Below are positions 3,677 through 59,480 of a stretch of 64,000 bases of DNA, one piece after another (the stretch's first letter is position 1; each line of letters begins with the position of its first letter). Origin of the DNA: an uncultured Pseudomonadota bacterium (GTDB taxonomy: Bacteria; Pseudomonadota; Alphaproteobacteria; RF32; CAG-239). The position numbers were made by a program, and so were the translations under genes. Below the pieces are notes generated by a model that saw only the letters and a program-made list of their open reading frames with translations, made no database searches and was not told the DNA's origin. The stretch is from assembly GCA_949295025.1 (NCBI GenBank), contig CASFJK010000006.1, positions 19,398-83,397 on the forward strand, read 5' to 3'.

Positions 3677-3715
3677 CTTTTTACCCGATAGCAACGCTCT
3701 AATCGCCCATTATAC
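3677..3715 (+). repeat. B-type palindromic element, 3' half only (locus 1)
   Basis: The segment from CTTTTTACCCGATAGCAACG to CGCCCATTATAC matches the 3' half of the complete B element at 59150-59257. The 5' half is missing, replaced by the fliP terminator region. An 18-bp spacer then leads into a complete A element. The partial copy shows that the A-next-to-B arrangement occurs here too. Confidence 0.7.
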
Positions 3716-3733
3716 GCGCTTTTCTAAAAAGAC

Positions 3734-3842
3734 GGAGAATGCGATAAGTAGAGTGATTTTAGGAGCAAGAAAAATCCTAGTGTACAAAAAGGTACATGGA
3801 TTTTTCGAGACGACGCTAAATTGCTCTAATTCCCCATTATAC
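3734..3842 (+). repeat. A-type palindromic element, complete (locus 1)
   Basis: This 109-bp imperfect palindrome starts GGAGAATG and ends CCCATTATAC. Its inner hairpin has arms GAAAAATCC and GGATTTTTC plus TGTAC and GTACA around a 6-nt loop. An outer stem pairs TAGAGTGATTT with AAATTGCTCTA. The flanks AAAAGAC (left) and GTCTTTT (right) extend the inverted repeat and match the 3' end of pheA. The right end, 3826-3842, encodes the last residues of PheA and its stop. Confidence 0.85.
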
Positions 3843-4677
3843 GTCTTTTCATATGAGCCGGATATGTTCCTAAAATATGCACATATTCTGCAAAAAAGTT
3901 AAGCTCGGCCAGTGCATTTTGAAAAGACTTTTGCGCAGGATGAGCTTCTGCTTCCAAATAGAATTGCGCTGAAACAAATCTACCGTCGAGCAGATAGCTT
4001 TCCAATTTTGTAATATTAATACCATTAGTCGCAAAACCACCAAGAGCTTTGTAAAGAGCTGCCGGAATATTTTTTGTCTTGAAAATAAAAGAAGTGATAA
4101 AATCGCCACCATCATCTTCAGGAATAATATCCTCGCGAGACATAATCAAAAAGCGGGTAGTATTATTTGATGCATTTTCAATATTTGAGGCTAAAATATC
4201 CAAGCCATAGATTTGACCTGCAAGCTTGGAAGCGATTGCCGCCATTGTTTTATCTTGAGCTTTGGCCACATCATCACAAGATTTTGCCGTATCAATACGA
4301 GCAACCGGTGTAATATGATGACTTTTAACAAATTCAGAACACTGAGCCAATGCTTGCGGGTGAGAAGACACGGTTTTAATATCTTCAAGCTTTGCCCCTT
4401 TCACACCCAAAAGTTGGTGTTCAATTCGCAAGAAATACTCACCTACAATATGCAATCCGGTTTTAGGAAGCAAAAAATGCACGTCAGAAACGCGACCGGC
4501 ATTAGAGTTCTCTACCGGAATCATTGCAAAATCAGCATTGCCATTCTGCACCATATCCATGGCCAGCTCAAAAGTTTCACAAGCAATATATTCTTGATTA
4601 GGATAAACATTCATTGCGGCAATATTCGAATAAGCACCAGCCACACCTTGATAAGCAATTTTTAATTTATGTTCCAT
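3826..4677 (-). CDS. pheA: Prephenate dehydratase
   Basis: This 283-residue monofunctional enzyme converts prephenate to phenylpyruvate in phenylalanine synthesis. The catalytic domain spans about residues 5-180, with YQGVAGAYSN near the start, the substrate motif VENSNAGRVSDVHFLLP, and the TRF triplet near residue 170. A regulatory ACT domain (about residues 190-275) includes GINITKLES. No chorismate mutase domain is fused. The final codons RIMGN and the TAG stop are read from an A-type palindromic element, so the C-terminus looks recently reshaped. kdsB lies just upstream on the same strand, a common alphaproteobacterial pairing. Confidence 0.95.
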   Translation of the reverse strand: MEHKLKIAYQGVAGAYSNIAAMNVYPNQEYIACETFELAMDMVQNGNADFAMIPVENSNAGRVSDVHFLLPKTGLHIVGEYFLRIEHQLLGVKGAKLEDIKTVSSHPQALAQCSEFVKSHHITPVARIDTAKSCDDVAKAQDKTMAAIASKLAGQIYGLDILASNIENASNNTTRFLIMSREDIIPEDDGGDFITSFIFKTKNIPAALYKALGGFATNGINITKLESYLLDGRFVSAQFYLEAEAHPAQKSFQNALAELNFFAEYVHILGTYPAHMKRRIMGN

Positions 4678-4684
4678 TTTTCCA

Positions 4685-4716
4685 TAAAAAAAGGCATCGC
4701 CAAAAGCGACGCCTTT
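4685..4716 (-). terminator. Terminator-like hairpin between kdsB and pheA
   Basis: On the minus strand AAGGCGTCGC pairs with GCGATGCCTT around a short loop and is followed by seven T. It ends 8 bp before the pheA ATG, so it may reduce read-through from kdsB into pheA rather than end an operon cleanly. Confidence 0.75.
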
Positions 4717-4731
4717 CCTTTCAATGATTAA

Positions 4732-5505
4732 TTATTTAATATATTTCAAAGCTTCGGTCAACTCTTCCGGAGTATTAATATCTGCAGGAGCTTTATCGTT
4801 CAAAGTAATATGATCAACCACTTTAGCACGAATGGTCATACCATTTTCCAAAGCTCTGAGTTGTTCCAAAGACTCTCTTTCTTCCAACACACCAACCGGC
4901 AAGTCTACAAACTTCTTCAAAGAAGATGCTTTATAAACATAAATACCAATATGGTGATACAAATCATGATTTTTGCATTTTGCTGGGTCTCTGGTATATG
5001 GAGCCAAAGCACGTGTAAATGTCAAGCAACGTCCTTCTTTTTCTCCTTCACGCAAACCCATCACAATTTTAACATTAGTCGGGTTTTCAGCATCTTTTTC
5101 AGATTTGAAAACAGAACCGCATGTTGCAATATCACAATCTGTTTTTTCGACTAAGTCAATCAACTCATTGTTAACGGCAGGATCAACGTTCAGACCATCA
5201 CCTTGGAAGTTAACAACGATATCATACTTGTCCCCTTTAGGGTCAAGTTCTTTCAACGCAGCCGCAATACGATCTGTTCCTGAAGGAAGTTTCGGATCTG
5301 TTAAGATTGCTTTTGCGCCAAATTTTTTACATTCATCAACAATAGCCTGATCACCTGCGGCAACAACCACATCTCCGGGCACTGTCTTTTTTACATTTTC
5401 ATAAACACGCTGAATCAAAGTCTTGCCATTAATATCAATCAAAGGTTTATTTGGCAAGCGGGTTGAAGCCATACGTGTAGGAATTAATGTAATCACTTTA
5501 GGCAT
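4732..5505 (-). CDS. kdsB: 3-deoxy-manno-octulosonate cytidylyltransferase
   Basis: This 257-residue enzyme activates KDO with CTP (KDO + CTP gives CMP-KDO + PPi) for lipid A inner core synthesis. The N-terminal nucleotide-binding signature is clear (IPTRMASTRLPNKPL, about residues 8-22). It is followed by the LPSGTDRIAAAL segment and by NFQGDGLNVD, matching the family's 'NVQGDEP' metal site but with GL in place of EP. The length is normal. It indicates an LPS-type outer membrane. It is transcribed toward pheA. Confidence 0.93.
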   Translation of the reverse strand: MPKVITLIPTRMASTRLPNKPLIDINGKTLIQRVYENVKKTVPGDVVVAAGDQAIVDECKKFGAKAILTDPKLPSGTDRIAAALKELDPKGDKYDIVVNFQGDGLNVDPAVNNELIDLVEKTDCDIATCGSVFKSEKDAENPTNVKIVMGLREGEKEGRCLTFTRALAPYTRDPAKCKNHDLYHHIGIYVYKASSLKKFVDLPVGVLEERESLEQLRALENGMTIRAKVVDHITLNDKAPADINTPEELTEALKYIK

Positions 5506-5585
5506 AACATATTCCCCATTAAATTAAACTTGCAACCAAGTCGAGTCTATATTATAAATATTCCAAAAAGTAAAGAGGAAAAATT

Positions 5586-6680
5586 ATGAAAGTGGATATT
5601 TTTGACTTTAATTTAGACAAAAGTCTAATTGCAAATAAGCCTGCAGAGCCCAGAGATACTTGCAAACTGCTAGATTTGACGGAAGAAGACAAAATCTCTG
5701 ATCGAGTGTTTACCGAGCTGCCGGATTTACTTGAAGAAGGAGATTGTCTGGTTTTCAACGACACAAAAGTCATTCCTGCAAAGCTCTACGGGAAACATGG
5801 CTTAGCAGAAGTACAAGTAACATTATATCGTCCCGTAGATGGAATTAATTGGTGGGCATTTGTAAAAAATGCAAAAAGATTAAAAGAAAATGATGTCATC
5901 ACTTTCTATACCGCAGGAATTGAGCCTGAAAAATCTGATTTCACCGCAATCGTCATTGAAAAAAACGGCGAAGAAGGCATTCTTTTGCAATTCACTTGCG
6001 AACCTTCACAACTTGGTCATTTGTTAGAAAAATACGGTTCCATGCCCCTACCACCGTATATAAAAAGAGAAAAACCCGTCATGGGTGGTGAAGATGGCAT
6101 CTGGGATAAATATAATGATAAAGAAAACTATCAAACCATTTATGCCAAACATGAAGGTGCGGTCGCAGCACCGACTGCCGGTCTTCACTTTACGCAACGT
6201 GTGTTTGATGCTTTAGATAAAAAAGGTGTGAAACGCGTTTTTTTAACGCTGCACGTTGGCGCCGGAACCTTTTTACCTGTTAAGGTAGAAGATACTGAAA
6301 ACCATAAAATGCATGCAGAATACGGTGTCATAACTCAAGATGTTTGCGACATAATCAATGAAACAAAAAAACAAGGCAAACGCGTAATTGCGGTTGGAAC
6401 CACGTCGCTCCGTTTGCTTGAAAGTGCAACCGACAATCAAGGTATCATCCATCCCTTTGCCGATGATACGGATATTTTCATTACGCCGGGATATAAATTT
6501 AAGATTTTGGATATGCTCATAACAAACTTTCACCTTCCGAAATCTACCTTGTTTATGTTGGTATGTGCCATTGCCGGAACCCAAAGGATGAAAGATGCTT
6601 ACCAACACGCCATGGATAAAAAATATCATTTTTATTCTTACGGAGATAGCTCAATTATCAAATGTGTAAACAAAATTTAA
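5586..6680 (+). CDS. queA: S-adenosylmethionine:tRNA ribosyltransferase-isomerase
   Basis: This 364-residue cytoplasmic enzyme transfers and isomerises the ribosyl group of SAM onto preQ1 in tRNA, giving epoxyqueuosine. The N-terminus has the family pattern DFNLDKSLIANKPAEPRDTCKLL, and GAVAAPTAGLHFT and LHVGAGTFLPV are strong QueA signatures (about residues 197-225). NFHLPKSTLFMLVCA sits near the C-terminus. Length and start are normal, with AGAGGAAAAATT upstream of the ATG. It is divergent from kdsB and followed by a separate GGDEF gene. Confidence 0.97.
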   Translation: MKVDIFDFNLDKSLIANKPAEPRDTCKLLDLTEEDKISDRVFTELPDLLEEGDCLVFNDTKVIPAKLYGKHGLAEVQVTLYRPVDGINWWAFVKNAKRLKENDVITFYTAGIEPEKSDFTAIVIEKNGEEGILLQFTCEPSQLGHLLEKYGSMPLPPYIKREKPVMGGEDGIWDKYNDKENYQTIYAKHEGAVAAPTAGLHFTQRVFDALDKKGVKRVFLTLHVGAGTFLPVKVEDTENHKMHAEYGVITQDVCDIINETKKQGKRVIAVGTTSLRLLESATDNQGIIHPFADDTDIFITPGYKFKILDMLITNFHLPKSTLFMLVCAIAGTQRMKDAYQHAMDKKYHFYSYGDSSIIKCVNKI

Positions 6681-6734
6681 ACGCATTAAAACTAAAATAG
6701 GAGTATCTTCAAAAAAATATATAAGGAGAGAAAC

Positions 6735-7910
6735 GTGAATAAAATTAACGCCTACATTGAACAATTTTTTCCGCTGATAAAAAATATCTTCATGCCGGCG
6801 TTATTATTCGCCCTCTCCTTAATTTGTTTTTATGCGCTGCATGAAATTTCTGTTTCTTCTTTAACAACACTGCACTGCTCATTTTATATCATCAGCTTCA
6901 TCAGTTTTATGATTTTGCTATATTTTAATCAACGCAAACCAGCCTTTTATATTTTGATGATGCTGCTGAGCTACATTTTAATCAACATTCTCAAAAACAA
7001 ATATAATCAAGATTATGCCACCACATCTTATTACATTAGTTTATGTTTTTTCTTGCCTTTGAACCTATTAGCTTTTTATTTTATTCCCGATAATCGCTTA
7101 TTATGCCGAACCAATGTGTTTTTATTGTTGGCAATATTCTTACAATTTTCTATCGGAGAAATTTTAGGACGTTATGATTTTCGTCTTAACTTAACTCTGT
7201 TTGACGGACATCTGGGCAACCTTAGTTCATTAGGTTTAATCTTCTTTATCATCACCTTAACCACCTTTTTCATCAAAGCATCAAAAGATGGTTTTATTAT
7301 GAACTATGCTCTGTTTTTTTGCAGCTTAAATCTTTTATTTGGCTTCATCTATTCAGACAATCCAACCGCATTAACAATCTTTTTCTGCTGTGCGGCATTG
7401 ACCTTGATGTTGGCTATAATTCACAGCATTTACTACAACACCTATAAAGATGCTCTTACCGGTCTTCCCAGCCGCAATTCATATATCATTCAATCAAACT
7501 CTTTTCCGCTTAAATATAGCATCGGCGTGGTCAGTATAGATAATTACAATAACATGAAAAATATCTTTGGTAAAAAAGATCGCGATATTTTAGTCCGCAT
7601 GATTGCAGGAAAAATCATTGAAGAGTTTGGCGAAGAACATTTATATCGCTATAGTGCCGACGAATTTATTTTGATTTTCAAAAACGAAAATAAGAACGAA
7701 AGCTTTGAACATCTGGAACAAATCCGTCGCGCCATTGCCTCTGCCGAATTTGTATTAAGCAATCGCCGCAAAAGTATCAAACTAACGGTTTCAACTTGTG
7801 TATCCGAAAAGAAACGTAGCGACGCAAATTCGATAGAAGTTTTGTATCGTATCCGCAAAACTTTGCAAAAAGCCAACGAATTCAGTCACAACATTTCATC
7901 AAAAGCTTAA
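6735..7910 (+). CDS. Membrane protein with degenerate GGDEF domain
   Basis: This 391-residue protein has about six or seven hydrophobic helices over residues 15-235, then a cytoplasmic GGDEF-type domain (about 240-390). The domain keeps DALTGLPSRNSY, typical of the start of the fold, but the signature loop reads YSADEF instead of GGDEF or GGEEF. That loop binds substrate GTP, so diguanylate cyclase activity may be lost or reduced; it could act as a nucleotide sensor. Start: GTG-free ATG/GTG context at 6735 preceded by AGGAGAGAAAC. The stop overlaps that of convergent lgt by 4 bp. Confidence 0.8.
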   Translation: MNKINAYIEQFFPLIKNIFMPALLFALSLICFYALHEISVSSLTTLHCSFYIISFISFMILLYFNQRKPAFYILMMLLSYILINILKNKYNQDYATTSYYISLCFFLPLNLLAFYFIPDNRLLCRTNVFLLLAIFLQFSIGEILGRYDFRLNLTLFDGHLGNLSSLGLIFFIITLTTFFIKASKDGFIMNYALFFCSLNLLFGFIYSDNPTALTIFFCCAALTLMLAIIHSIYYNTYKDALTGLPSRNSYIIQSNSFPLKYSIGVVSIDNYNNMKNIFGKKDRDILVRMIAGKIIEEFGEEHLYRYSADEFILIFKNENKNESFEHLEQIRRAIASAEFVLSNRRKSIKLTVSTCVSEKKRSDANSIEVLYRIRKTLQKANEFSHNISSKA

Positions 7911-7916
7911 GCTTTT
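7901..7916. terminator. Shared palindrome at convergent stops of the GGDEF gene and lgt
   Basis: AAAAGCTTAAGCTTTT is perfectly palindromic. Both stop codons (TAA on each strand) share the central TTAA. With TTAA as the loop it can form a 6-bp stem followed by T residues on both strands, so it may be a weak bidirectional terminator. Confidence 0.45.
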
Positions 7917-8701
7917 TTACGACTGACAAAATACAATACACATAGACCAAGCACAATCAGTGGTACGGAAAGAATTTGTCCCATTGTAAAGTAGGTAAAG
8001 AAATATCCCATTTGAATATCGGGTTCTCTAAACTGTTCCATCGAAATACGGAAAATTCCATACAAAATGACAAACAAAGAAGAAACCACACCTTGATGAG
8101 CTCTAACCCAAGCAGAACGCCATAAAGAGTTAAGCACAACAAACATGACTATACCTTCAAAAAAAGCCTCATAAAGCTGAGATGGATGGCGTGGTAAAAA
8201 GCCCCCTTTCGGAAATTTAATTGCCCAAGGAACATCTGTCACACGCCCCCAAAGTTCATCATTAACAAAATTTGCCAACCGTCCGAGAAAAAGACCAATC
8301 GGAGCATAAAGTACAACCAAATCGGTTAGAGCTAAAAATTTATAATTAATTTTGCGTGCAAAGAGATAAGTTGCAACAATCACGCCTATTGCTCCGCCAT
8401 GAAAAGACATGCCGCCTTTCCACACTTCAAATATTTGCAGAGGGTTCATCCAAAATGCAGTTCCTCCGTAAAAAAGAACATATCCGAGCCTTCCTCCGAT
8501 AACAATACCCAGAGTAATATAAAAAACAAAATCTTCTATATTTTCTTTTGAAAGTTTCAAATCATGTTTTTTAACATTACGATTGATAAGCAACCAACCA
8601 ATGATGATTCCAAGCAAATATGCCATTGAATACCAGCGAATATCAAGAGGTCCGATTGAAAACATAATTGGTGAAATTTGAGGAAAATCAAGCCCATTCA
8701 T
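7907..8701 (-). CDS. lgt: Prolipoprotein diacylglyceryl transferase
   Basis: This 264-residue inner-membrane enzyme transfers diacylglycerol from phosphatidylglycerol to the lipobox cysteine of prolipoproteins. Seven hydrophobic helices are visible. The family signature GRLANFVNDELWGR lies at about residues 140-155, and the conserved HGG (MSFHGGAIG, about 100) and RHPSQLYEA segments are present. Length is normal. It supports an active lipoprotein pathway, consistent with the lolCD genes further along. Confidence 0.97.
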   Translation of the reverse strand: MNGLDFPQISPIMFSIGPLDIRWYSMAYLLGIIIGWLLINRNVKKHDLKLSKENIEDFVFYITLGIVIGGRLGYVLFYGGTAFWMNPLQIFEVWKGGMSFHGGAIGVIVATYLFARKINYKFLALTDLVVLYAPIGLFLGRLANFVNDELWGRVTDVPWAIKFPKGGFLPRHPSQLYEAFFEGIVMFVVLNSLWRSAWVRAHQGVVSSLFVILYGIFRISMEQFREPDIQMGYFFTYFTMGQILSVPLIVLGLCVLYFVSRKKA

Positions 8702-8877
8702 TTTTTATTCCTTTTCTGATTTTCAAAATTGCTAAGATTATATTAACAAAAAAAAATATATCCACATGAAAAAAATTTTTTCATCTACACAATAAATGTA
8801 ATTGTTTGATTTAAAACAAAAATATTTTTTATTTTTTTTATAAAAAACAAATTAAGTGGAAAACTGCGACTCGGTAC

Positions 8878-8922
8878 TTGTATTTCACGACTCGGCAATG
8901 CAATCTGTACCCAGATACAAAA
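8878..8922 (+). other. Leader with paired GACTCGG motifs upstream of the YbjN-like gene
   Basis: The region between lgt and the YbjN-like gene is AT-rich with long A and T runs, then shows GACTCGG twice (8869-8875 and 8890-8896), 21 bp apart. GACTC fits the alphaproteobacterial CcrM methylation site GANTC. No clear promoter hexamers could be assigned, so the function is unknown. Confidence 0.3.
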
Positions 8923-8964
8923 AAAACACTATCGTCAAAACTTTTTTTTCAAACGGAGAAGAAC

Positions 8965-9465
8965 ATGCAGTTGGCACAGAACATTGCCTTTGAATATAAT
9001 CCCATAGATTTGGTTGAGAATATCTTCTCCACAAAATCATTCGAATTTGAACGCCGCTCAATTAACGAAGTTGTTGTTGAGGTCCAAGGCAAATGGAACA
9101 ACATGCTCTTGTTCTTTTCTTGGGAAGAAAATATGCGTTGTTTGCATCTTTCTTGCCTAATGGACATCAAAAGCACCATAGAAGATCGCAGCAAAATTTT
9201 TGAACTTTTGGCTCTTGTCAACGAAGATTTATGGTTAGGGCATTTTTCCTATTGGACAGAACAAAATATGCCTGTTTTCAAACATGCCATACTTTTAAAT
9301 GATGAAGATGAGCAAATTTTAAATGGCAAAATCTCACAAGTAATTGATATCGCCATCCGCGAATGTGAGCGCATGTACCCAATATTCAAAGTTGTTTTAA
9401 CCAAAGGCATGGATCCCAAACAAGCTCTCTATCCTATGCTGATGGAAACTTTAGGCCAAGCTTAG
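8965..9465 (+). CDS. YbjN domain-containing protein
   Basis: This 166-residue soluble protein resembles the alphaproteobacterial YbjN / type III secretion chaperone-like family: an alpha-beta sandwich with the segments LLFFSWEENMRCLHLSC and ELLALVNEDLWLGHFSY. These proteins are of uncertain function and have been linked to stress and motility phenotypes. I chose the ATG at 8965 because ACGGAGAAG precedes it at the right spacing; an upstream TTG at 8878 is unlikely. It is a single-gene unit with its own terminator. Confidence 0.75.
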   Translation: MQLAQNIAFEYNPIDLVENIFSTKSFEFERRSINEVVVEVQGKWNNMLLFFSWEENMRCLHLSCLMDIKSTIEDRSKIFELLALVNEDLWLGHFSYWTEQNMPVFKHAILLNDEDEQILNGKISQVIDIAIRECERMYPIFKVVLTKGMDPKQALYPMLMETLGQA

Positions 9466-9470
9466 ATAAC

Positions 9471-9510
9471 AAAAAAAGCCGTTTTCTTTTAATGAAAACA
9501 GCTTTTTTTT
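9471..9510 (+). terminator. Intrinsic terminator after the YbjN-like gene
   Basis: AAAAAAAGCCGTTTTC and GAAAACAGCTTTTTTTT form a long stem around a 7-nt loop with a run of eight T. Confidence 0.85.
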
Positions 9511-9516
9511 CAAGAG

Positions 9517-9714
9517 TTACTTTCCCCTCACACCACGCCGATTAATGTTTTTAGTTTTTGCACGAAATTTAGTTTCTTTCAACCTCATTCTAGCATCCAC
9601 ATACTCTCTTTTTTTAGAAAATCGCGGTGGCGTAAAAAGTATCCTTTCTGCTCCAAACTCAAAACTTGCAATAACAAAGGCAAGCCTTGCAATCAACCAG
9701 TCAAAAAATTTCAT
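9517..9714 (-). CDS. Small hypothetical protein with hydrophobic N-terminus and basic tail
   Basis: This 65-residue frame starts MKFFDWLIARLAF and has one hydrophobic segment (about residues 3-20). A strongly basic C-terminal half follows, ending in NINRRGVRGK. An in-frame ATG at 9738 would add eight residues. I do not recognise it. The protein-like composition and its place just after a second small membrane frame argue for a real gene. There is no convincing Shine-Dalgarno site, so confidence is limited. Confidence 0.4.
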   Translation of the reverse strand: MKFFDWLIARLAFVIASFEFGAERILFTPPRFSKKREYVDARMRLKETKFRAKTKNINRRGVRGK

Positions 9715-9725
9715 AGCTAAAAAAT

Positions 9726-9809
9726 TTAAGAACAACAAATTATAATTAATACAAATAAAATAAACAGTACTGCTTCTGCAACTGTGACAATCTTAATTTT
9801 CTTTTCCAT
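9726..9809 (-). CDS. Possible 27-residue membrane micropeptide
   Basis: A short minus-strand frame begins MEKKIKIVTVAEAV and continues into a single hydrophobic helix ending in CCS. It ends 11 bp before the ATG of the next small gene. The layout (lysine-rich start, one transmembrane helix) is common for small membrane proteins, but the frame is short and no ribosome site is clear, so it may be chance. Confidence 0.25.
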   Translation of the reverse strand: MEKKIKIVTVAEAVLFILFVLIIICCS

Positions 9810-9892
9810 AAAACTTTTTTATAAACATAAATGAACTATAGTAATAATTAAGTATCACATATTATTAAACTCAATTACTTTTACTGTAAATA

Positions 9893-9925
9893 AAAAAGTG
9901 TACTTCCATCTAAGAAGCACACTTT
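9893..9925 (-). terminator. Intrinsic terminator after mltG
   Basis: On the minus strand AGTGTGCTTC and GAAGTACACT pair around CTTAGATG-like loop sequence and run into six T. It is about 55 bp past the mltG stop. Confidence 0.75.
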
Positions 9926-9979
9926 TCAATGTTATTCGTCTTAAAAGAAAATACGTTTCTATCTACCGTCAAAGGAGAA

Positions 9980-10933
9980 CTATTTAGAAATTTTTTTCAC
10001 CCAGCTTTTTACATTTTTATTATGTTCGGAAAGACTTTTAGAAAAATTATGTCCGCCATCTCCGGTTGCCACAAAAAATAAATAATCTGTTTCAGCAGGC
10101 TGCGCTGCAGCCCAAATAGCATCTTTTCCGGGATTACAAATCGGCTCCGGAGGTAGACCAAAATATTTATAAGTATTATAAGGGCTATCAACTTGCAAAT
10201 CCTTGCGTTTTAAAGAACGACCAAGATCAGATTTTCCCTGTGTAATTGCATAAATAACGGTTGGATCTGTTTGCAGTTTCATCCTTGTTTTTAAGCGATT
10301 AACAAAGACTGAAGCCACCAGCGGTCTTTCTTCTGGCACACCGGTTTCTTTTTCAATAATGGAAGCAAGAATGAGAAGCTCTTTCTTATTTTTTATGGGC
10401 AATGTCAAGTCACGAGCATTCCATGCTTCATCCAATGTTTTTTGCATATCTGTTTGCGCTTCGCGTACCAATTTTTGACGTTCTGTTCCAAATGGGAAAG
10501 TATAAGTCTCAGGCAAAATGGTTCCCTGAATATCTCCGACAACAACATCTCCTTGCAAATACGGATTTTCTGATAACAATTTAGCAATTTCTACATTAGT
10601 CAAACCTTCTGGCAATGTAATTTTACGATAAAACACATCTCCTTGCGCAATTTTTTGCATCACTTGCCATAAAGAAATTTTGGGCTCAAACTTATATTCT
10701 CCGGCACGCAATTTCTGAGACAAACCTGAAAAACGAGCTATAATTTTAAATATAAAAGGATGGGAGATAATTCCTTCATGGCTCAAACCATCGGCCATCA
10801 TATTAAGGGAGGTTCCTTTTTCCACTCTAATATATGCGGTTTTAGAAAGAGGCCCCGCCTGCACACACCATAAATAAACTTGCAAACACAACAAGGCACC
10901 TAAAACGACGCCGATTCCAAAAATTTTTTTCAT
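9980..10933 (-). CDS. mltG: Endolytic murein transglycosylase (YceG-like)
   Basis: This 317-residue protein has one N-terminal membrane anchor (about residues 5-25), a LysM-like region, then the YceG catalytic domain. The active-site segment ASIIEKETG (about residue 190), with its catalytic glutamate, and QTDPTVIYAI are diagnostic. DSPYNTYKYFGLPPEPICNPG near residue 250 is also conserved. MltG cuts nascent glycan strands and sets their length during peptidoglycan synthesis. It sits downstream of fabF and acpP on the same strand, a common order, but terminators separate them. Confidence 0.95.
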   Translation of the reverse strand: MKKIFGIGVVLGALLCLQVYLWCVQAGPLSKTAYIRVEKGTSLNMMADGLSHEGIISHPFIFKIIARFSGLSQKLRAGEYKFEPKISLWQVMQKIAQGDVFYRKITLPEGLTNVEIAKLLSENPYLQGDVVVGDIQGTILPETYTFPFGTERQKLVREAQTDMQKTLDEAWNARDLTLPIKNKKELLILASIIEKETGVPEERPLVASVFVNRLKTRMKLQTDPTVIYAITQGKSDLGRSLKRKDLQVDSPYNTYKYFGLPPEPICNPGKDAIWAAAQPAETDYLFFVATGDGGHNFSKSLSEHNKNVKSWVKKISK

Positions 10934-11050: not shown

Positions 11051-11069
11051 ATAATCTATTAATCTCAAA

Positions 11070-51002: not shown

Positions 51003-51797
51003 ATGGACATCAAAAAGCACCTTCTCACCAACTTTAACGAAAGGAAAAAGTCGATTTCGGCTCTGGTATTACATTGTTCTGCTTTTCATGAAGACCAAAT
51101 CCAGCAAATTTATATACAAGAACAAGGAAGTCCACATTACTTTATTGATGAAGACGGTAGTTTAACTCAAATGGTGGAAGAAGACAAACGCGCTTGGCAT
51201 GCAGGTGTGGCTTCTTGGCGCGAGATAACCGAAGATTTTAATTCTGCTTCCATCGGCATTGAAATTTGCAACTTGAGTTTGGGTGAAACTCCTTACACGC
51301 AAGCACAAATAAAAACGCTTATTCCTTTGTGCCAAGAGATTATCAAAAAATATCACATTCAACCACAAAATGTGGTTGCCCATTCAGATATTGCCCCGAT
51401 GAGAAAAATGGACCCAGGAATGACTTTTCCATGGCAAGAATTGGCAGAAAATGGAATTGGCTTGTGGTATGATGTGAAAAATGCCGATAAAATCAAAGAA
51501 AATGATATAGGAAAATTATTAAAACAAATCGGCTATAAAGCAGATGATAAAGAAGAAACAATCGCCGCAGCTTATGCTTTCCGCCGCCATTTTCTGCCGG
51601 AAGAAGTGGAAATTGTAAACAATGTCCGCGAGCTGATTGAACACCCCTACCCGCAAGGAAAAGAAAGCTTGTTGCAAGGTGAAAAGTTTTTACAAACCCT
51701 TAAAGCCGTAGCTTATAGCTTTGCGCATGCAAACGAAAAAAACTTAAATCAAAGCTTGTTAAAACAAGGAAAAAACATCAAGCAGATAATTTTCTAA
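51003..51797 (+). CDS. N-acetylmuramoyl-L-alanine amidase (AmpD/AmiD type)
   Basis: This 264-residue amidase_2 enzyme cleaves the amide between muramic acid and the peptide. Zinc ligands appear as His in VLHCSAFH (about 24), His in AHSDIAP (about 123) and Asp in MDPGMTFPW (about 133). WHAGVASWRE and the SIGIEICN core are typical. There is no signal peptide, so it may act on recycled muropeptides in the cytoplasm. It starts 3 bp after the DjlA-like gene. Its last codons and stop match the inner arm of an A-type element. Confidence 0.9.
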   Translation: MDIKKHLLTNFNERKKSISALVLHCSAFHEDQIQQIYIQEQGSPHYFIDEDGSLTQMVEEDKRAWHAGVASWREITEDFNSASIGIEICNLSLGETPYTQAQIKTLIPLCQEIIKKYHIQPQNVVAHSDIAPMRKMDPGMTFPWQELAENGIGLWYDVKNADKIKENDIGKLLKQIGYKADDKEETIAAAYAFRRHFLPEEVEIVNNVRELIEHPYPQGKESLLQGEKFLQTLKAVAYSFAHANEKNLNQSLLKQGKNIKQIIF

Positions 51798-51831
51798 GAC
51801 AACGCTAAATTGCTCTAGTTTCCCATTATAC
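51798..51831 (+). repeat. A-type palindromic element, 3' half (locus 2)
   Basis: GACAACGCTAAATTGCTCTA and the end TTTCCCATTATAC match the 3' half of A elements. Similarity seems to continue upstream into the amidase gene's last codons (TTTTCTAAGAC compared with TTTTCGAGACG). The 5' half is absent. Confidence 0.7.
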
Positions 51832-51850
51832 ACGATTTAACATAAATTGT

Positions 51851-52115
51851 GGAGAATGTGGCGAGTAGTAGGCGCCGAAGGAAAAAGTACCGGAGCGCAT
51901 GAGGGACAACTTTTTCTATGGCAACGTAAGGTAACACAAAAGCTCGGAGACGGTCGCAAAAGAAAGCACCTTAAATGTGCTTTCTTTAAGGAGACGCAAT
52001 GAGACTTGGCTTTGGTAGAATGCGACAGCTTTCGTAACAAAGCCTTAGTCGGAATTGAAAAGCGTACGTAAGGAAACTTTTTACCCGATGGCAACGCACT
52101 AATCGCCCATTATAC
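51851..52115 (+). repeat. B-type palindromic element with nested insert (locus 2)
   Basis: The 5' half runs from GGAGAATGTGGCGAGTAGTA to GGAAAAAGTACCGG (51851-51902). The 3' half runs from CTTTTTACCCGATGGCAACG to CCCATTATAC (52076-52115). About 170 bp of extra sequence lies between them, including a second copy of the GACAACTTTTT..ATGGCAACG arm and a perfect hairpin AAAGAAAGCAC/GTGCTTTCTTT (51957-51987). The flanks ATAAATTGT and ACGATTTAT are near inverted copies of the ruvX end. The right edge encodes the last Val and stop of ruvX. Confidence 0.75.
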
Positions 52116-52697: not shown

Positions 52698-54014
52698 ATG
52701 AAATTCAGATATTTTTTGACTGTATTGTTCAGCTTATTGGCCATTACTCCGGCCAAAGCCGAGTTGCAAATTGATGTCAACGGTGCCGTGCGCGACCCGA
52801 TGCCGATTGCCATTCCCGAGATGATTCATGAAGGATTTTGGATTGGTCAACAAGGCAGCAAAATCCGCGATGTTATTGTTGCCGACTTGGAACGCTCCGG
52901 CTTGTTTAAGGTTATTGATGAAAATAGTTACATTCAAGAGTTCAAATCTATGGATGAAGAACCTGCTTTCATTGATTGGCGCGCCATTAACGCTCTGGCC
53001 TTGGTCCAAAGTGCCATCAAAGAAGTGGGACAAAATCAGCTCAAAATTGAATTTCGTTTGTGGGATGTTTATGCCGAAAGTCAGTTAAGAGCACAATCTT
53101 TCACCACTACCAAAGACAACTGGCGCCGCGTTGCTCACGTGATTGCCGATGCCATTTATGAACGCTTAACCGGTGAAAAAGGCTACTTTGACACTCGCAT
53201 TGTTTATGTTTCTGAAACTGGTCCGGCAACCAGAAGAATTAAGCGTTTGGCAATCATGGACCAAGACGGAGAAAACCACAAATATTTAACCTCCGGTCAA
53301 GCCATGGCTTTGACACCGAGATTTTCACCCAACCTCCAAAAGATTACTTATATGTCTTATGCCGGCGGTATTCCGAAAGTATATATTTTGGATATTGAAA
53401 CAGGAAGACAAGAGTTGATTGGAAACTTCCCCGGCATGACCTTTGCACCTCGTTTTTCACCGGATAGTTCTAAACTATTGTTGAGCTATGCTGCCAACGG
53501 TAGAACCGATATTTATGAGATGGATTTGAAAAACCGGCGTTCAACCCAACTGACCAAGAATGCCGGAATTAACACTTCTCCGAGCTATTCTCCGGATGGT
53601 TCTCAAATTGTGTTCAACTCTGACCGAGGCGGCAACCAACAACTTTATGTCATGAATGCCGATGGCTCCGATGTTCACCGTATCAGCTTTGGACAAGGTA
53701 GATATGCAACTCCGGTTTGGTCACCGCGTGGCGACTACATTGCCTTCACCAAAATGGCCAACGGACAATTCTACATTGGCGTAATGTATCCAGACGGAAC
53801 AGGTGAACGCTTACTTGCCAGCGGCTATTTGGTAGAAGGACCGACCTGGTCACCGAACGGACGTGTAATCATCTACTTCCGACAAGATAGAGGAACGTCG
53901 CGTTCTAATGCTCCGGTTAAGTTATATTCAATTGATTTGACTGGCTATAACGAGCGTTTGGTTGTAACCCCAGCCGATGCTTCAGACCCAGCTTGGTCAC
54001 CATTATTACCATAG
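52698..54014 (+). CDS. tolB: Tol-Pal system protein TolB
   Basis: This 438-residue periplasmic protein has a signal peptide cut after AKA (about residue 21), an N-terminal alpha-beta domain (about 25-165) and a six-bladed beta propeller (about 170-435). The propeller repeats carry the WD40-like TolB motifs [30 protein letters not shown] and [12 protein letters not shown]. It links Pal with the TolQRA complex during outer-membrane constriction. No other tol genes are adjacent, and a terminator follows the stop. Confidence 0.96.
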
Positions 54015-54027
54015 TGATAGAAAAGAA

Positions 54028-54056
54028 AAAAGCACCTCAACGAGGTGCTTTTTTTT
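54028..54056 (+). terminator. Intrinsic terminator after tolB
   Basis: AAAGCACCTC and GAGGTGCTTT pair in a 10-bp stem with a 2-4 nt loop and a T run. Confidence 0.88.
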
Positions 54057-54060
54057 GAAC

Positions 54061-54157
54061 AATGAGCAAATACTTCGCCTTGCACTTTGGTAACATCGCA
54101 GCTTAGGAGTACTGTCAGTGCGATAGTCTATTAGGGCGGTCAAGCTGCCTCCAGCTT
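54061..54157 (+). other. Structured spacer before the locus-3 element array
   Basis: This stretch has no reading frame of note. It can fold into CATCGC..GCGATAG (54095-54125) and AAGCTGCCTCCAGCTT (54142-54157) hairpins. It may be remains of further hairpin elements, but I cannot match it to A or B. Confidence 0.35.
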
Positions 54158-54166
54158 AAATTATTT

Positions 54167-54275
54167 GGAAAATGTAGGAAATAGAGTGATTTTAGGAGCG
54201 AGAAAAATCCTAGTGTACAAAGAAGTACATGGATTTTTCGAGACGACGCTAAACCGCTCTAGTTCATCATTATAC
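54167..54275 (+). repeat. A-type palindromic element, first copy (locus 3)
   Basis: It is 109 bp, from GGAAAATG to ATCATTATAC, nearly identical to the second copy 183 bp downstream. The few differences are in the outer stem; the inner hairpin is identical. Flanks AAATTATTT and AAATAATGA are near inverted copies of each other. Confidence 0.85.
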
Positions 54276-54291
54276 AAATAATGAAAATGGG

Positions 54292-54340
54292 GGATTATAT
54301 GAGGCGAGTAGTAGGCGCCGAGGGAAAAAGTACCGCTCGC
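54292..54340 (+). repeat. B-type palindromic element, 5' half (locus 3)
   Basis: From GGATTATATGAGGCGAGTAG through TAGGCGCCGAGGGAAAAAGT to about ACCGCTCGC, this matches the 5' half of B. The 3' half is missing and the sequence passes straight into the next A copy's flank. Confidence 0.7.
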
Positions 54341-54349
54341 AAATTATTT

Positions 54350-54458
54350 GGAGAATGCGGGAAATAGAGTGATTTTAGGAGCGAGAAAAATCCTAGTGTA
54401 CAAAGAAGTACATGGATTTTTCGAGACGACGCTAAATCGCTCTAGTTCCCCATTATAC
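54350..54458 (+). repeat. A-type palindromic element, second copy (locus 3)
   Basis: It is 109 bp from GGAGAATG to CCCATTATAC. The flanks AAATTATTT (54341-54349) and AAATAATTT (54459-54467) are perfect 9-bp inverted copies, and the right one lies in the lepA coding end. Bases 54442-54458 encode the last residues and stop of lepA. Confidence 0.85.
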
Positions 54459-56226
54459 AAATAATTTTAGTTGTCGCCGATGCGCAACGCATACGTTGCT
54501 TACCTTTCTTTTGCTTATCCAAAAGTTTGCGCTTACGAGTGACGTCACCGCCATAACATTTTGCAGTCACATCTTTACGCAAGGCAGAAATGGTTTCACG
54601 CGCAACCACACGACCACCGATTGCGGCTTGGATTGGAATTTTGAACAAGTGTCTGGGAATGAGGTCTTTTAAGCGCTCACAAATTTGACGACCGCGCGCT
54701 TCGGCTTCTCCGCGGAAACAAAGGAAAGCCAAAGCATCAACCGGTTCTTCATTAATAAGAATTTGCACTTTAACCAAATCCGATTCGTGGTAGCCGATAA
54801 GTTCATAGTCAAAGCTAGCGTAACCGCTGGTGATAGATTTGAGACGATCATAAAAATCGAACACGATTTCGTTCAACGGAATTTTATAAATCACCATCGC
54901 ACGGCTGCCGGCATAAGTGAGTTCCACTTGCTCACCTCGTCTTTCGGTACAAAGTTTCAAAACCGAACCCAAATATTCATCCGGCACCAAAATTGTAGCT
55001 TTAACCCAAGGTTCTTCAATAGATTTAATTTTGGTCACATCCGGCATATCGGCAGGGTTATGTAGCATCATATCTGTGCCATCGGTCAAATGCAGTTTAT
55101 AAGCAACTGAAGGCGCGGTTGTAATCAAATCCAAATCAAATTCACGGCTCAAACGCTCTTGAATAATTTCCATATGCAGCAAACCTAGGAAGCCACAACG
55201 GAAACCCAAACCCAGCGCAGTAGAATTTTCGTTTTGATAATCGATACTGGCATCATTAAGTTTGAGCTTAGCCAAAGCATCTTTCAGAGCCTCATATTGG
55301 CTAGAATCCACTGGGAAAATAGAGCAGAACACAACGGGTATTGAAGGTTTGAAACCATGTAAAGGTTTATCACACGGACGTTTGTTATCGGTAATTGTAT
55401 CACCGATATGACAATCGCTCACACTCTTGATGCTGGCAGTGATATAGCCAACTTCTCCGGGGTAAAGAGCATCTATCTCTTGCATTTTTGGAGTAAAGAT
55501 TCCCACGCGGTCAACCAGATAAGTAGCATTATTGCTCATCATACGGATTTGCGTTTTTTTGCGCATAACACCATCTTTAATACGCACCAAAATCACCACG
55601 CCGAGGTAGGAGTCGTACCAACTGTCAATCAAAAGCGCTTTGAGAGGTGCTTCTTCATCACCGGTTGGTGCCGGCAAATGTTTGACAATGGCTTCAAGCA
55701 AGTTTTCCACACCCAAACCGGTTTTACCGGAAGTCTCAACAGCAACTGTAGTATCGAGTCCTATCACATCTTCAATTTGACGTTTTACTTTTTCAACATC
55801 AGCCGAAGGCAAATCAACCTTGTTTAAGACGGGAATAATCTCGTGGTTATTATCAAGCGCCAAATAGACATTGGCAAGCGTTTGCGCTTCCACACCTTGA
55901 GTGGCATCCACAACCAAGACCGAACCTTCACAGGAAGCCAAAGAACGTGAAACTTCATAAGAAAAGTCAACATGTCCGGGAGTATCCATCAAGTTGAGCT
56001 GATAGGTTTTGCCATCTTTAGCTGTATAGTTCAAGCGCACGGTCTGAGCCTTAATGGTGATGCCGCGCTCTTTTTCAATATCCATCGAGTCCAAAACTTG
56101 TTCAGTCATCTCGCGTTGTTGCAAACCACCGCAATATTCAATCATACGGTCTGCAAGAGTAGATTTTCCGTGGTCAATATGCGCAATAATCGCAAAGTTT
56201 CTAATCCAATCCGAATTTGTAGCCAT
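54442..56226 (-). CDS. lepA: Elongation factor 4 (LepA), with altered C-terminus
   Basis: This 594-residue translational GTPase back-translocates or remodels ribosomes. It has the G domain ([30 protein letters not shown]), then domain II, and domains III and V. The EF4-specific C-terminal domain (about 480-585) has [22 protein letters not shown]. The family usually continues with a short conserved tail ending near EAFLAVLK. Here the frame instead reads CASATT and then codons from an A-type element (ending IMGN and TAG). The loss may be mild, since the tail is flexible. Confidence 0.93.
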
Positions 56227-56362
56227 ATAAAAAATTCACTTTCAAAAAAAATTTTGCAAAATTTAAGCTCAAAATATATGAAAAAAAAATTATTCGCAAT
56301 ATATTATTAACTATGCTAATATATATAGTTATAAAAAGACCATGGTAAAATGGAGGCGTATT

Positions 56363-56800
56363 ATGAAAAAGATGATTGATGTTGACTTTGGCTCATCTCG
56401 CTATGACGAGTTGGTTAAGCTTCGCTACAAAATCTTGCTTGAGCCTCTGGGACTAAAGTTTTTAGACATGCATCGCGCCAAAGAAGCCAACTATTTACAC
56501 ATTGGCTGCATTGAAAGTTTGGATGATAAACTCATTGGTGGTCTAATCTTAGCTCCGGTAGATAATGAAACAATCCGCCTAATGCAAGTGGCTGTAGACA
56601 CCAAATATCAAGGTGAAGGTATTGGACACCAAATGGTCAAATATGCCGAAAAACGCGCCAAAGAAGCTGGATATACCAAGATTGTAATGCATGCCATGCT
56701 CTCGGTCGTGCACTTTTATGAAACCATGGGTTATGTACAAGAAGGTGATATTTTTGAAGAAAGCGGCATCACCTTTGCCAAGATGGTCAAAGATTTATAA
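56363..56800 (+). CDS. GNAT-family N-acetyltransferase
   Basis: This 145-residue protein has the acetyl-CoA binding loop as QVAVDTKYQGEGIGHQMVKYAEKRA (about 75-98), matching Q/RxxGxG/A. It is likely an ElaA-like or related small-molecule acetyltransferase; substrate unknown. I choose the ATG at 56363 because TGGAGG lies at the right spacing; the ATG at 56342 adds seven residues. It is divergent from lepA and has its own terminator. Confidence 0.88.
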   Translation: MKKMIDVDFGSSRYDELVKLRYKILLEPLGLKFLDMHRAKEANYLHIGCIESLDDKLIGGLILAPVDNETIRLMQVAVDTKYQGEGIGHQMVKYAEKRAKEAGYTKIVMHAMLSVVHFYETMGYVQEGDIFEESGITFAKMVKDL

Positions 56801-56817
56801 AGAAAGCATTTTCGTAG

Positions 56818-56845
56818 AAAAGCCACTTTTATGTGGCTTTTTTTA
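56818..56845 (+). terminator. Intrinsic terminator after the GNAT gene
   Basis: AAAGCCAC and GTGGCTTT pair around TTTTAT, followed by a T run. Confidence 0.85.
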
Positions 56846-56915
56846 TTGACTTTTGTCCAACAATATGACAGAAAAGACACAATATTTTATTATTAACTAC
56901 AAAAAATATTATTTT

Positions 56916-57530
56916 ATGGAAAAGACAAGACAATTGCAAATCATGCAAAAGGTAGAAAAAGCCATTTATGCTTGGCAAAAAAATATCAGCTCAGAAACTG
57001 ATTACGATGATATTGAAGACACCATTGAAATGATCACACATACAATTGCGTTCGGTATCATTATTGTTTCGGGAAAAAACAACCCATCGGCTTATATCGG
57101 CACCTGCCGCCAGTGTATGGATTTAAAAGAAAAATTTGGTGGTCAAACCGGTGCTATCAGCAATGTTTGGTATTGGATTGGAGATGAAAATGCAGATACA
57201 ATCGGCAAGATTGTCAAAAACTCTCAAAAAAATCTGATAATCCCCATTCCTCCGACAGATTTGGCAGACACCATTTTAAACGTCAGTGAGGCTTGCTCCA
57301 TTGATATCAAATATGGCAATACCGCGGGTGGCAGAGCCTCATATATTGGCAACTACCGCGTTTGTACTTTGCTCAAAGCCAAATACAATGGCAAAATCGG
57401 TAAGTCATATAACCATTGGTATTGGATTGGTCAAGCCAGCTTTCACGAAATCACCAAGCTCTATAAAGCTTACCAAAGCCGGAGCAAACGTTTTAGAAGA
57501 AAACGCGTGGTTTTGCAAAATTATGCCTGA
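56916..57530 (+). CDS. Hypothetical protein with two copies of a YIG..C..LK..WYWIG module
   Basis: This 204-residue protein begins MEKTRQLQIMQK (an upstream start at 56853 adds a poor extension). Two internal repeats align: one near residues 58-104 and one near 141-187. Each has a Y-I-G triplet, an Arg and Cys four to six residues on, LK-x-K-F/Y, and a WYWIG segment. The tail is basic (RSKRFRRKRV). I do not recognise the module. No signal peptide or membrane helix is present. Confidence 0.6.
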   Translation: MEKTRQLQIMQKVEKAIYAWQKNISSETDYDDIEDTIEMITHTIAFGIIIVSGKNNPSAYIGTCRQCMDLKEKFGGQTGAISNVWYWIGDENADTIGKIVKNSQKNLIIPIPPTDLADTILNVSEACSIDIKYGNTAGGRASYIGNYRVCTLLKAKYNGKIGKSYNHWYWIGQASFHEITKLYKAYQSRSKRFRRKRVVLQNYA

Positions 57531-57538
57531 ATTTAAAA

Positions 57539-57575
57539 CAAAAAAGGGATGGTTCTTAAAACCACCCTTTTTTTA
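57539..57575. terminator. Bidirectional terminator between convergent genes
   Basis: AAAAAAGGGATGGTT and AACCACCCTTTTTT pair around a short loop, with T runs on both strands. Confidence 0.85.
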
Positions 57576-57590
57576 TGCTATTCAGAAAGA

Positions 57591-58931
57591 TTACTTCCCA
57601 AATTTTTGCGAAAGCTCATAATGAACCTCGAGCCATACGCGAATTCCCAACTGTTCAAGTCCGGGAATTTCCGCACAAATTTCTTCAAAGGTCATTTTTT
57701 GAGCTCTTTGAAAAGCTTCCGGATTTCCAAAATGCGCTTTCAAAGCTGCTTCAGCCTCTTCTACGCTTTTAATTCGTTGGAAGAAAAAGCTTTCATCCGG
57801 TGTGTTTTGCAAATATTCAAGGAAATCGCCTCCTTGACGCGGAACACCTAAGAACTTTTGATACTTATTCAGGTCTTCCATCAACTCTTTGTCATAAGAT
57901 TCGGAAGTGAAAGAACCGCGAGCGCGCAAATCACTCAGGATAATATCACATACTGCTTTTTCGTGCTCAACACCATAGAGCAGCTCGGCATAATTCGGCC
58001 ACCCCATGTTGGAGAACTCACGGATAAGTTCTGCAAATATGGACCAATCAGCCTCTGCAACCCCCGGCATCAGATAGCGTTCCGGACGAAGTGATGTTGT
58101 GGTTCCATCGAAGTCTATCGTATCTTTCATCAACGGACCTAAGCTGGCAGCCACATAGCCCAACATGATTTCCGATAACCGTCCATCTACCACACTCAAA
58201 TTGGTGATAATCGGACAGTGAGTTAAGACAAAATTCATCTTAACTTCAGCATACTTCTTGTCGCGTGCCTTAAGCATGAACTCTGCAAGTAAGCGCTTGT
58301 CATAGCTGAAGTTGCCCGAACACAAAATAAAAGTCACTTCATCACGTCCGGTTTCTTTGGCAAATTGATAAAGTTCATCAAAATTACCGTCCGTATCCAT
58401 GTCCTTGCAGACGCGTTCGTTGGCACGAAAATATTCCGTCGGAACGAGTTTTTCAAGGAGGTTATAATAGGCATTATATTCAGAACCTATCATCAAACCG
58501 TCCTCACGGTTGAAAACAGATTCATATAATCCCTTATTACCACCCTTTCCGATTGCCAAAAAAGGCAACAATTTTCCAGTCTGTTTGGCATACATTCTCA
58601 GCACTTCGAAGGCACAAATATGTGCCGTCATTATACCTGAAAAACAGACCAAAACCGGATTTCTCATATCCTTTGGCAGATCATACAAGCCGGTAACTCG
58701 CGCTGTTGAAATGAAGCCTTGTGCATTGGCATACTGATAAGTTTCGCCCGGTTTGCAACCACCGATTTTTTCTGCGTATTGCAGAACCGGCAACCATTTT
58801 TTAGCATCTAATTTGCGCGGCGCTAATGCGCCAACTTCATTATAAATAAATGCTCTGCCATCGGCATTGCATTTGAAGTTATTAGATACCAGTAATGAAT
58901 AAAGTTGTTCAGAAACATTTTTTGATTCCAT
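57591..58931 (-). CDS. Hypothetical cytoplasmic protein, 446 residues
   Basis: This protein lacks a signal peptide or membrane helices. The middle (about residues 90-260) has alternating strands and helices that look Rossmann-like, for example NPVLVCFSGIMTAHICAFEVLRMYAKQTG and RDEVTFILCSGNFSYDKRLLAEFML. The family cannot be named; a YdcF/SanA-like (DUF218) fold is one weak possibility. It is a single gene, convergent with the repeat-module gene and next to the locus-4 element array. Confidence 0.55.
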   Translation of the reverse strand: MESKNVSEQLYSLLVSNNFKCNADGRAFIYNEVGALAPRKLDAKKWLPVLQYAEKIGGCKPGETYQYANAQGFISTARVTGLYDLPKDMRNPVLVCFSGIMTAHICAFEVLRMYAKQTGKLLPFLAIGKGGNKGLYESVFNREDGLMIGSEYNAYYNLLEKLVPTEYFRANERVCKDMDTDGNFDELYQFAKETGRDEVTFILCSGNFSYDKRLLAEFMLKARDKKYAEVKMNFVLTHCPIITNLSVVDGRLSEIMLGYVAASLGPLMKDTIDFDGTTTSLRPERYLMPGVAEADWSIFAELIREFSNMGWPNYAELLYGVEHEKAVCDIILSDLRARGSFTSESYDKELMEDLNKYQKFLGVPRQGGDFLEYLQNTPDESFFFQRIKSVEEAEAALKAHFGNPEAFQRAQKMTFEEICAEIPGLEQLGIRVWLEVHYELSQKFGK

Positions 58932-59035
58932 AATAATTTTAATTTACATTAAACATAATTTTTAATTTTAACGAAAAAGAATATACCACATTTTTTGTCC
59001 ATATACAAGACAAAAAAATAAGATAATGTGATACG

Positions 59036-59072
59036 AAAAATGCCAAGGAAAAAATTATTCCTTGGCATTTTT
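59036..59072 (-). terminator. Intrinsic terminator beyond the locus-4 array
   Basis: AAATGCCAAGGAA and TTCCTTGGCATTT form a 13-bp perfect stem. On the minus strand it would end transcripts from ettA after they pass through the element array. Confidence 0.85.
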
Positions 59073-59101
59073 CAGATAAAAACCGTATTAATTTTCAAAT
59101 T

Positions 59102-59132
59102 GACACTAAACTGCCCTAATTCTCCGTAATAC
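59102..59132 (+). repeat. A-type palindromic element, 3' half (locus 4)
   Basis: GACACTAAACTGCCCTAATT to TCTCCGTAATAC matches the 3' end of A elements with several changes. It is followed by GAATTTTCAAAAAATTC, itself palindromic. Confidence 0.6.
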
Positions 59133-59149
59133 GAATTTTCAAAAAATTC

Positions 59150-59257
59150 GGAGAATGCAGCGAGTAGTAGGCGCCGAGGGAAAAAGTACCGGAATGTACA
59201 AAGAGGTACATGAGGACACTTTTTACCCGATGGCAACGCACTAATCGCCCATTATAC
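59150..59257 (+). repeat. B-type palindromic element, complete (locus 4)
   Basis: This 108-bp copy is the clearest B element. It starts GGAGAATGCAGCGAGTAGTA and ends CGCCCATTATAC. The inner hairpin pairs GGAAAAAGT with ACTTTTTACC and ATGTAC with GTACAT around AAAGAG. The outer arm pairs GCGAGTAGT-like sequence with ACTAATCGC. The spacers on either side repeat AAAATTC and GAATTTT/ATTTT. Confidence 0.82.
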
Positions 59258-59272
59258 ATTTTCAAAAAATTC

Positions 59273-59480
59273 GGAGAATGCGGGAAATAGAGTGGTTTTA
59301 GGAGCGAGAAAAATCCTAGTAACCGCTAAGCAAAAATGCCTTTAATATGGCATTTTTGTCTGCAAGGTCTTTGGAACATCTTGTTGAGTTAGGCTATGAA
59401 AATAGCCGCAACGAACCTAAGCGGAAGAGGTACATGAATTTTTCGAGACGACGCTAAACTGCTCTAGTTCCCCATTATAC
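59273..59480 (+). repeat. A-type palindromic element with structured insert (locus 4)
   Basis: The 5' half (GGAGAATGCGGGAAATAGAG to GAAAAATCCTAGT) and 3' half (GTACATGAATTTTTCGAG to CCCATTATAC) are separated at the hairpin loop by about 105 bp. The insert has CCGCTAAG/CCTAAGCGG closing arms, a CAAAAATGCC/GGCATTTTTG hairpin and a GCTAT/ATAGC hairpin, giving a branched fold. Flanks AAAAAATTC and GAATTTTTTT match the ettA end. Confidence 0.8.

Follow-up and report, generated by a model that had tools for sequence, protein, structure and literature searches.

Known palindromic repeats and a family with two cores

The Bru-RS repeats of Brucella were reportedly described by Halling and Bricker in 1994, and RIME, reportedly described by Osteras et al. 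in 1995, is said to be a palindromic intergenic mosaic repeat of about 100 bp in rhizobia. ERIC, RUP and SPRITE are small palindromic or terminator-like intergenic elements of other phyla or classes, and to our knowledge none has a locus-specific arm. The passages on Bru-RS in PMC10800456 give Bru-RS1 and Bru-RS2 as two related palindromes of 103 and 106 bp, lying 155 bp apart behind zntA; the repeats are further covered in passages of PMC2266754 and in a table of PMC2267715 that also holds RUP, and SPRITE is named in PMC10969869. The Rickettsia palindromic elements (RPEs) appear in passages of PMC10969869 and PMC2267715 as palindromes of about 95-150 bp, of several families, inserted in frame in protein genes. 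In Escherichia coli, a share of the repetitive extragenic palindromes (REPs) lies 15 nt or less from a stop codon, according to a passage of PMC12306157. Here we describe palindromes about 109 bp long, built on either of two cores (A or B), at four sites in a stretch of 64,000 nucleotides (the window; contig CASFJK010000006.1, positions 19,398 to 83,397) from an uncultured alphaproteobacterium. We consider these units to be a non-coding palindromic repeat of a mobile type, in which template switching rewrites the arms and slippage alters the copy number, a reading to which we give a probability of roughly 0.6.

The kind of element is known from Brucella (Bru-RS1/2) and Rickettsia (RPE), and it is the lineage and the fit to gene ends that look new. 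The sequence-only reading had named no described family of this structure. In kind this did not stand, Bru-RS1 and Bru-RS2 (PMC10800456) being comparable; for the lineage it did, as the lineage is absent from Rfam and no paper describing it was found in the passages of open-licence literature available. Compared by description, the units resemble Bru-RS in being intergenic palindromes of about 100-110 bp in Alphaproteobacteria, with two related types together behind one gene. Unlike at the zntA locus, neighbouring units here are mostly 8-45 nt apart, and the Bru-RS passages mention neither the stop-codon anchoring nor the locus-specific outer arm that are present here. The likeness to RPEs that the sequence-only reading had noted was apt, as in-frame copies are present within uvrC; also by description, both are alphaproteobacterial palindromic units capable of in-frame insertion. 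Unlike RPEs, described in the passages mainly for such insertion, the present family shows one in-frame locus (uvrC of G000 and G001; G and L numbers denote genomes and loci), the remainder standing behind genes. RIME, by its description, is alike in its hosts, rhizobia, where named relatives of the present family are also found.

The unit is described on the strand of the preceding genes, which is opposite to the window's forward strand. It reads x, GTATAATGGG with the 5' arm, the tip CATGTAC...GTACACT, the 3' arm ending in GCATTCTCC, and x', where x and x' are mutual reverse complements whose sequence varies between sites. The two cores have common ends and a common tip (CATGTAC...GTACA). 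Between adjacent units come x', a short loop and then x, and arrays often close at their far end with a half-unit tail consisting of x and roughly the first 15-50 nt of the unit (by eye, at window sites 1, 2 and 4 and at L008, L039, L044 and L053). A locus can be written as (x-unit-x'-loop)n, after which come x and the opening portion of one more unit. The same two elements are present at all four sites at the positions reported earlier, an A model giving a best E value of 1.2e-35 in the window's own genome, which speaks against a chance likeness, and both types occur at every site when partial copies are counted. The units within the window alternate in type and share one orientation. The latter had been stated for all copies; it holds within the window, and the rest of the genome has matches on both strands. 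The genes preceding the window arrays (pheA, ruvX, lepA and ettA) are all on the minus strand, and the single orientation is explained by the anchoring of the arrays behind them. Stop-codon anchoring, the locus-specific outer stem, tails and nested repeats are features beyond those of the sequence-only reading.

Arrays at gene ends and their outer stems

Covariance models were made from 10 A copies (R1) and 5 B copies (R2). The stored alignments, drawn from 90 sources, comprise 285 rows, namely the best 150 of 199 R1 matches and 135 R2 matches. These rows represent 152 places and reduce to 134 distinct units, of which 102 open an array. Anchoring was tested on the 91 array-first units with at least 400 nt upstream, and the distance was taken from the nearest same-strand stop of an open reading frame (ORF) of at least 120 aa to GTATAATGG. 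This distance was -22 to -5 nt in 16 units, which overlap the end of an ORF, 0-12 nt in 39 and 13-25 nt in 9. First units 0-25 nt behind a stop thus numbered 48 of 91, against 8.6% of 10,100 random intergenic draws; the null leaves out positions inside ORFs, where the negative class would fall, so only the 0-25 nt class was compared. The other end of the unit was near an opposite-strand stop in 5 of 90 cases, and never at 0-12 nt (0/90). Arrays tend to begin at the stop of the gene that they follow. A promoter role for GTATAATGG was considered and dropped, other loci carrying GTCTAGCTGG, GATAACGG or GTATTTTGG at this position.

Three gene ends were inspected by eye at 30 loci each, the gene having been matched in 62 of 65 genomes in every case. 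A unit abuts the stop of lepA at 11 loci, with a tail only at one more, that of ettA at 7, ordinary terminators standing at many of the others, and that of rplY at 5. The lepA gene of the window's own genome (window 54442-54500) lacks about 46 nt near its 3' end relative to G001 and G004; its frame is shifted by this loss and ends inside the adjoining unit. Behind ettA of G004 (L246) stands a short hairpin with a T run that resembles a shrunken A unit, as though one had decayed to an ordinary terminator.

The outermost 7-17 bp of the units are specific to the locus. An exact outer stem of at least 7 bp was found in 98 of the 134 units, and in 22 of 134 when partners were swapped; because the models include this stem, the units were partly selected for it. 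Paired with its own x', x matched at 7.0 of 8 bases, compared with 3.7 of 8 across loci and 2.2 of 8 for the next 8 bases outward. In rplY, x holds the last codons and the stop codon, and x' complements them, with an exact complement of 15 nt at L276. Between two rplY loci (L137 and L156) a synonymous codon and the stop codon differ, and x' changes to match. At L009, x is the C-terminal coding sequence of the preceding gene. Locus-specific outer stems were also seen on a different type of hairpin, TCATGCTTG...TTCGCTTGTGTAC...GTACACGTCGC, at the end of rplY (L156) and of another gene (L160), in places where other genomes have A or B units.

A run of at least four T was present at the 3' arm in 60% of 98 units, compared with 18% of background stretches, and one of at least five in 34%. 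On the transcript, the hairpin closely follows the stop and frequently closes with a short run of U, which makes it plausible that it acts as, or replaces, the terminator of the gene. An alternative is that units enter the loops of hairpins already in place, intrinsic terminators for example, x and x' being the arms of the old terminator. An A-rich x and a T-rich x' would suit such an origin, as would the ordinary terminator that often lies a few nt behind the stop at unit-free lepA and ettA loci, and the location of two further repeats, C and D (see below), near the tips of A and B. On the contrary, the arm in rplY extends into coding sequence and is A/T-rich, that in uvrC lies within an ORF, and the x'-loop-x arrangement between units is not produced by a single insertion. 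We regard this origin as unlikely.

Arm matching, copy number and movement

Among 33 diverse units (32 distinct), 93.8% of alignment cells pair, and both sides change in 39 of 43 pairs. None of the shuffles attained the observed covariation values, and the score fell from 0.59 to at most 0.14 once the pairing partner was slid along; fitting the alignment to the structure biases it in favour of that structure. The long hairpins claimed earlier were borne out by folding, with z-scores on the two strands of -8.5 and -10.1 for A and -4.3 and -5.4 for B. The folding energy of A was -51.4 kcal/mol on the strand opposite the mRNA and -43.5 kcal/mol on the mRNA strand. Over 5,677 cells (77 A and 57 B rows) we counted 224 G-U and 160 A-C combinations. 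The tRNA control gave 32 G-U and no A-C, a control biased by a finder that disfavours A-C. A much larger excess of G-U would be expected if selection acted on the mRNA strand alone, and the mostly Watson-Crick covariation, with its near symmetry of the strands, points to a matching of the arms at the DNA level, presumably by template switching, with any RNA role on top.

An alternative with a lower probability, although a real possibility, is a structured RNA at the mRNA 3' end, in which the hairpin would be selected as a terminator, a stability element or a brake on terminating ribosomes, and the covariation would be compensatory. The position just behind stops, the strong covariation and the U run at the 3' arm are all in line with this, and the same gene ends (lepA, ettA, infB and rplY) retain units across species. 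In addition, E. coli REPs no more than 15 nt from the stop are reported to stall ribosomes, according to the passage of PMC12306157. However, G-U and A-C are nearly balanced, A folds better on the strand opposite the mRNA, both core type and outer arm differ at one and the same gene end (rplY, G000/G003 versus G001/G004), and copies are found in frame in uvrC.

The uvrC gene of G000 has about 115 extra residues, in frame, between FNIK and INQDDF. The insert consists of two 123-nt units (41 codons) and a tail. In sister species, three units with a tail are found in G001, tail-like sequence alone (n=0) in G004, and no insert in G003; the outer stem here is 17 bp by eye. The motif was located at four of nine uvrC loci (L188-L191); by match coordinates, the other genomes among the 60 with a uvrC match have no such insert, G048 and G007 being matched only partly. 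uvrC is the clearest gain, and displays the (unit)n plus tail arrangement where the reading frame had to be kept.

Among 26 adjacent unit pairs, core identity was 0.65 or less in 21 and at least 0.75 in 5, in a sample drawn with A-type models and patterns in which B-B arrays are under-represented. Pairs were judged by core identity since A/B labels based on rank are noisy (the 'B-A' pairs of L055 and L137 are 0.90 and 0.93 identical); typing by motif left most units untyped and was not used. The A/B alternation described in the sequence-only reading is therefore a common tendency, and was dropped as a strict or obligatory rule. Median core identity was 0.83 between loci of one genome (76 pairs) and 0.72 between genomes (2,543 pairs).

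On the template-switching reading, x' would be written from the flanking x when replication switches template on the hairpin, and the same arm copying would keep the arms matched; PMC8794818 puts forward template switching as a process by which hairpins are made and maintained. Slippage between direct repeats, each consisting of x and the 5' arm, would change the copy number and could leave a lone tail. Identical neighbours are direct repeats, which slippage would remove more readily, so that unlike neighbours would outlast them and A/B alternation would result. An agent inserting new copies may act in trans.

Several points weigh against this reading. An exact 7-bp outer stem is lacking in 36 of the 134 units. 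In the genomes G045 and G054 (g9), the lepA and ettA arrays have the same x and the same sequence beyond it, which shows that x can also move together with the unit; a purely target-derived x was not upheld everywhere. Among the first units, 27 of 91 are not near a stop (15 lie farther away and 12 have no such ORF), and the unit of L022 adjoins a start codon, that of truA. The best match of a unit was in another genome in 33 of 38 cases, so that recent spread is rare; this fits old, vertically kept loci with rare gains, and an active recent spread was set aside as having little support. G-U is somewhat commoner than A-C, and some selection on RNA is possible. An insertion enzyme was not found in a transposase search that covered Y1.

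Two forms of transposition were also weighed. In a classical miniature inverted-repeat transposable element (MITE), a DDE transposase would act on terminal inverted repeats and leave a target-site duplication. We noted related end sequences (GTATAATG / CATTCTCC), a fitting length, nested insertions and, at L009, a direct repeat of x on both sides. The bounding repeat, however, is x with up to about 50 nt of the unit rather than a fixed short duplication, on a sample with few clean empty sites, and the terminal arm varies by locus, which makes a MITE improbable. Movement by a Y1 (RAYT-type) transposase, as for REPs and REPINs, is very improbable. These are likewise repeated palindromes, intergenic, in many copies and partly near stops, but in the passages on them they are shorter (REPs are 20-40 bp in PMC3733652, the present units being three to five times as long) and have a Y1 link that was not found here. 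The Y1_Tnp domain had no match in the window's own genome and was found in 25 of 65 family genomes, being absent from the element-rich G012 and G026. A Y1 mover is not required, as presence of the domain does not track element number.

Distribution, window features and neighbouring repeats

The window's own genome is 1.68 Mb in 43 contigs. R1 gave 21 matches in it, among which both strands of one palindrome may have been counted; R2 gave 25 at E≤1, five places being hit on both strands, which leaves 20 distinct ones. Interrupted copies are additional to these counts. In a comparison with Rfam, a tRNA was the only match at curated score in the whole window. When thresholds were relaxed at three of the four sites, 0, 0 and 3 matches appeared, the three being far under curated scores. 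We thus found no known RNA family at curated score for the units.

Among 130 relatives, R1 matched 70 genomes, comprising 67 of the 73 in the window's family (f1) and three outside it, G073, G094 and G122. G022, G029, G062, G064, G065 and G071 of the family had no R1 match. By eye, one copy in G094 follows what resembles the 3' end of a tRNA, and copies abut stops in G122. The exact A-core pattern matched 51 stretches in a genome collection, all in records titled uncultured Alphaproteobacteria, Azospirillum, Rhodospirillales or proteobacterium, some with isolate names that suggest animal gut or rumen. A third model (R3; 33 units) was run on 385 genomes of the class and matched 18, including five from the window's family. 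Fifteen matches from other families were opened; a simple tip pattern, CAYGTAC...GTAC, is shared by 14, and a stop is no more than 12 nt away in 4 (L306, L308, L324 and L326).

One unit from another family has relatives on 22 plasmid records, of Sphingobium, Shinella, Agrobacterium, Phyllobacterium, Allorhizobium, Novosphingobium and Rhizobium. The copy from Shinella has relatives on 35 plasmid records, and Ensifer plasmids are also among the carriers of related units; the window's A unit itself had no match on plasmids. R3 scored four named copies at 26-38 bits (E values of 7.5e-7 to 5.9e-4), a modest score by which the plasmid copies of named genera are likely kin to the family. Sixteen plasmid regions were opened, 14 of them annotated. 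In 9, the modelled start lies 2-11 nt beyond the end of a same-strand gene; the gap is 21 and 40 nt in two more, and the remaining three have no such gene; these distances rest partly on transferred alignment positions. The architecture recurs in other alphaproteobacterial families, including plasmids of Shinella, Sphingobium and Agrobacterium.

A bolder reading would be a class-wide selfish alphaproteobacterial hairpin that inserts preferentially at stops and has the last codons and stop of the host gene copied into its far arm. We hold this to be doubtful. If true, each copy would be custom-fitted to its gene, and the insertion process, for example fold-back copying at the gene end, would be of an undescribed kind. 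Our findings point to one structural family with a shared tip behind palindromic repeats of several alphaproteobacterial families. Many replicated gene ends are available for asking whether arm pairing is kept by replication template switching or by selection on RNA, and the question why a palindromic repeat prefers stop codons can be approached in named, culturable genera.

Carriage by phage was rejected, the exact A pattern having no match in viral contigs. The pattern from other families had three viral-contig matches, besides one weak phage match of 34 nt. On the viral contigs L328-L330 the tip motif of the wider family is present, with R3 scores of 30-37 bits.

Table 1. Units, tails and nested repeats at the four sites of the window
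Feature	Position	Strand	Remarks
Site 1, B tail (half unit)	3677..3715	-	
Site 1, full A unit 3' of pheA	3734..3842	-	outer arms reach about 3726 and 3850
Site 2, A tail (half unit)	51789..51831	-	
Site 2, B unit 3' of ruvX, broken near tip by repeat C	51851..52115	-	
Site 2, nested repeat C, two hairpins	51946..52057	-	approximate boundaries
Site 3, full A unit	54167..54275	-	outer arms reach 54159 and 54283
Site 3, partial B unit (3' part, gene-sense direction)	~54285..54341	-	approximate boundaries
Site 3, full A unit 3' of lepA	54350..54458	-	outer arms reach 54342 and 54466
Site 4, A tail (half unit)	59090..59132	-	
Site 4, full B unit	59150..59257	-	
Site 4, A unit 3' of ettA, broken near tip by repeat D	59273..59480	-	
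Site 4, nested repeat D	59321..59428	-	approximate boundaries

Two of the window units are broken near the tip by other repeats (Table 1). Repeat C has the motif CAATTCCGACTA...GTCTCATTGC...GCGGC and forms two hairpins whose stems vary among copies yet remain paired; it may be a structured element of its own. Besides the window copy, it is nested in A or B units at L013, L020, L034, L100, L101, L253 and L254, and in one lepA unit it is present in L101 and absent in L102. Repeat D (...CAAGATGTTCCAAAGACC...) was found near the tip of A-type units in more than one genome, at L010, L122 and L223 in addition to the window. A further repeat, GCCAGCTTGACCGC..., lies behind some arrays (L009 1660-1960, L087, L100 and L255); its pattern matched 31 times across the loci examined, and L009 has three tandem copies about 104 nt apart.

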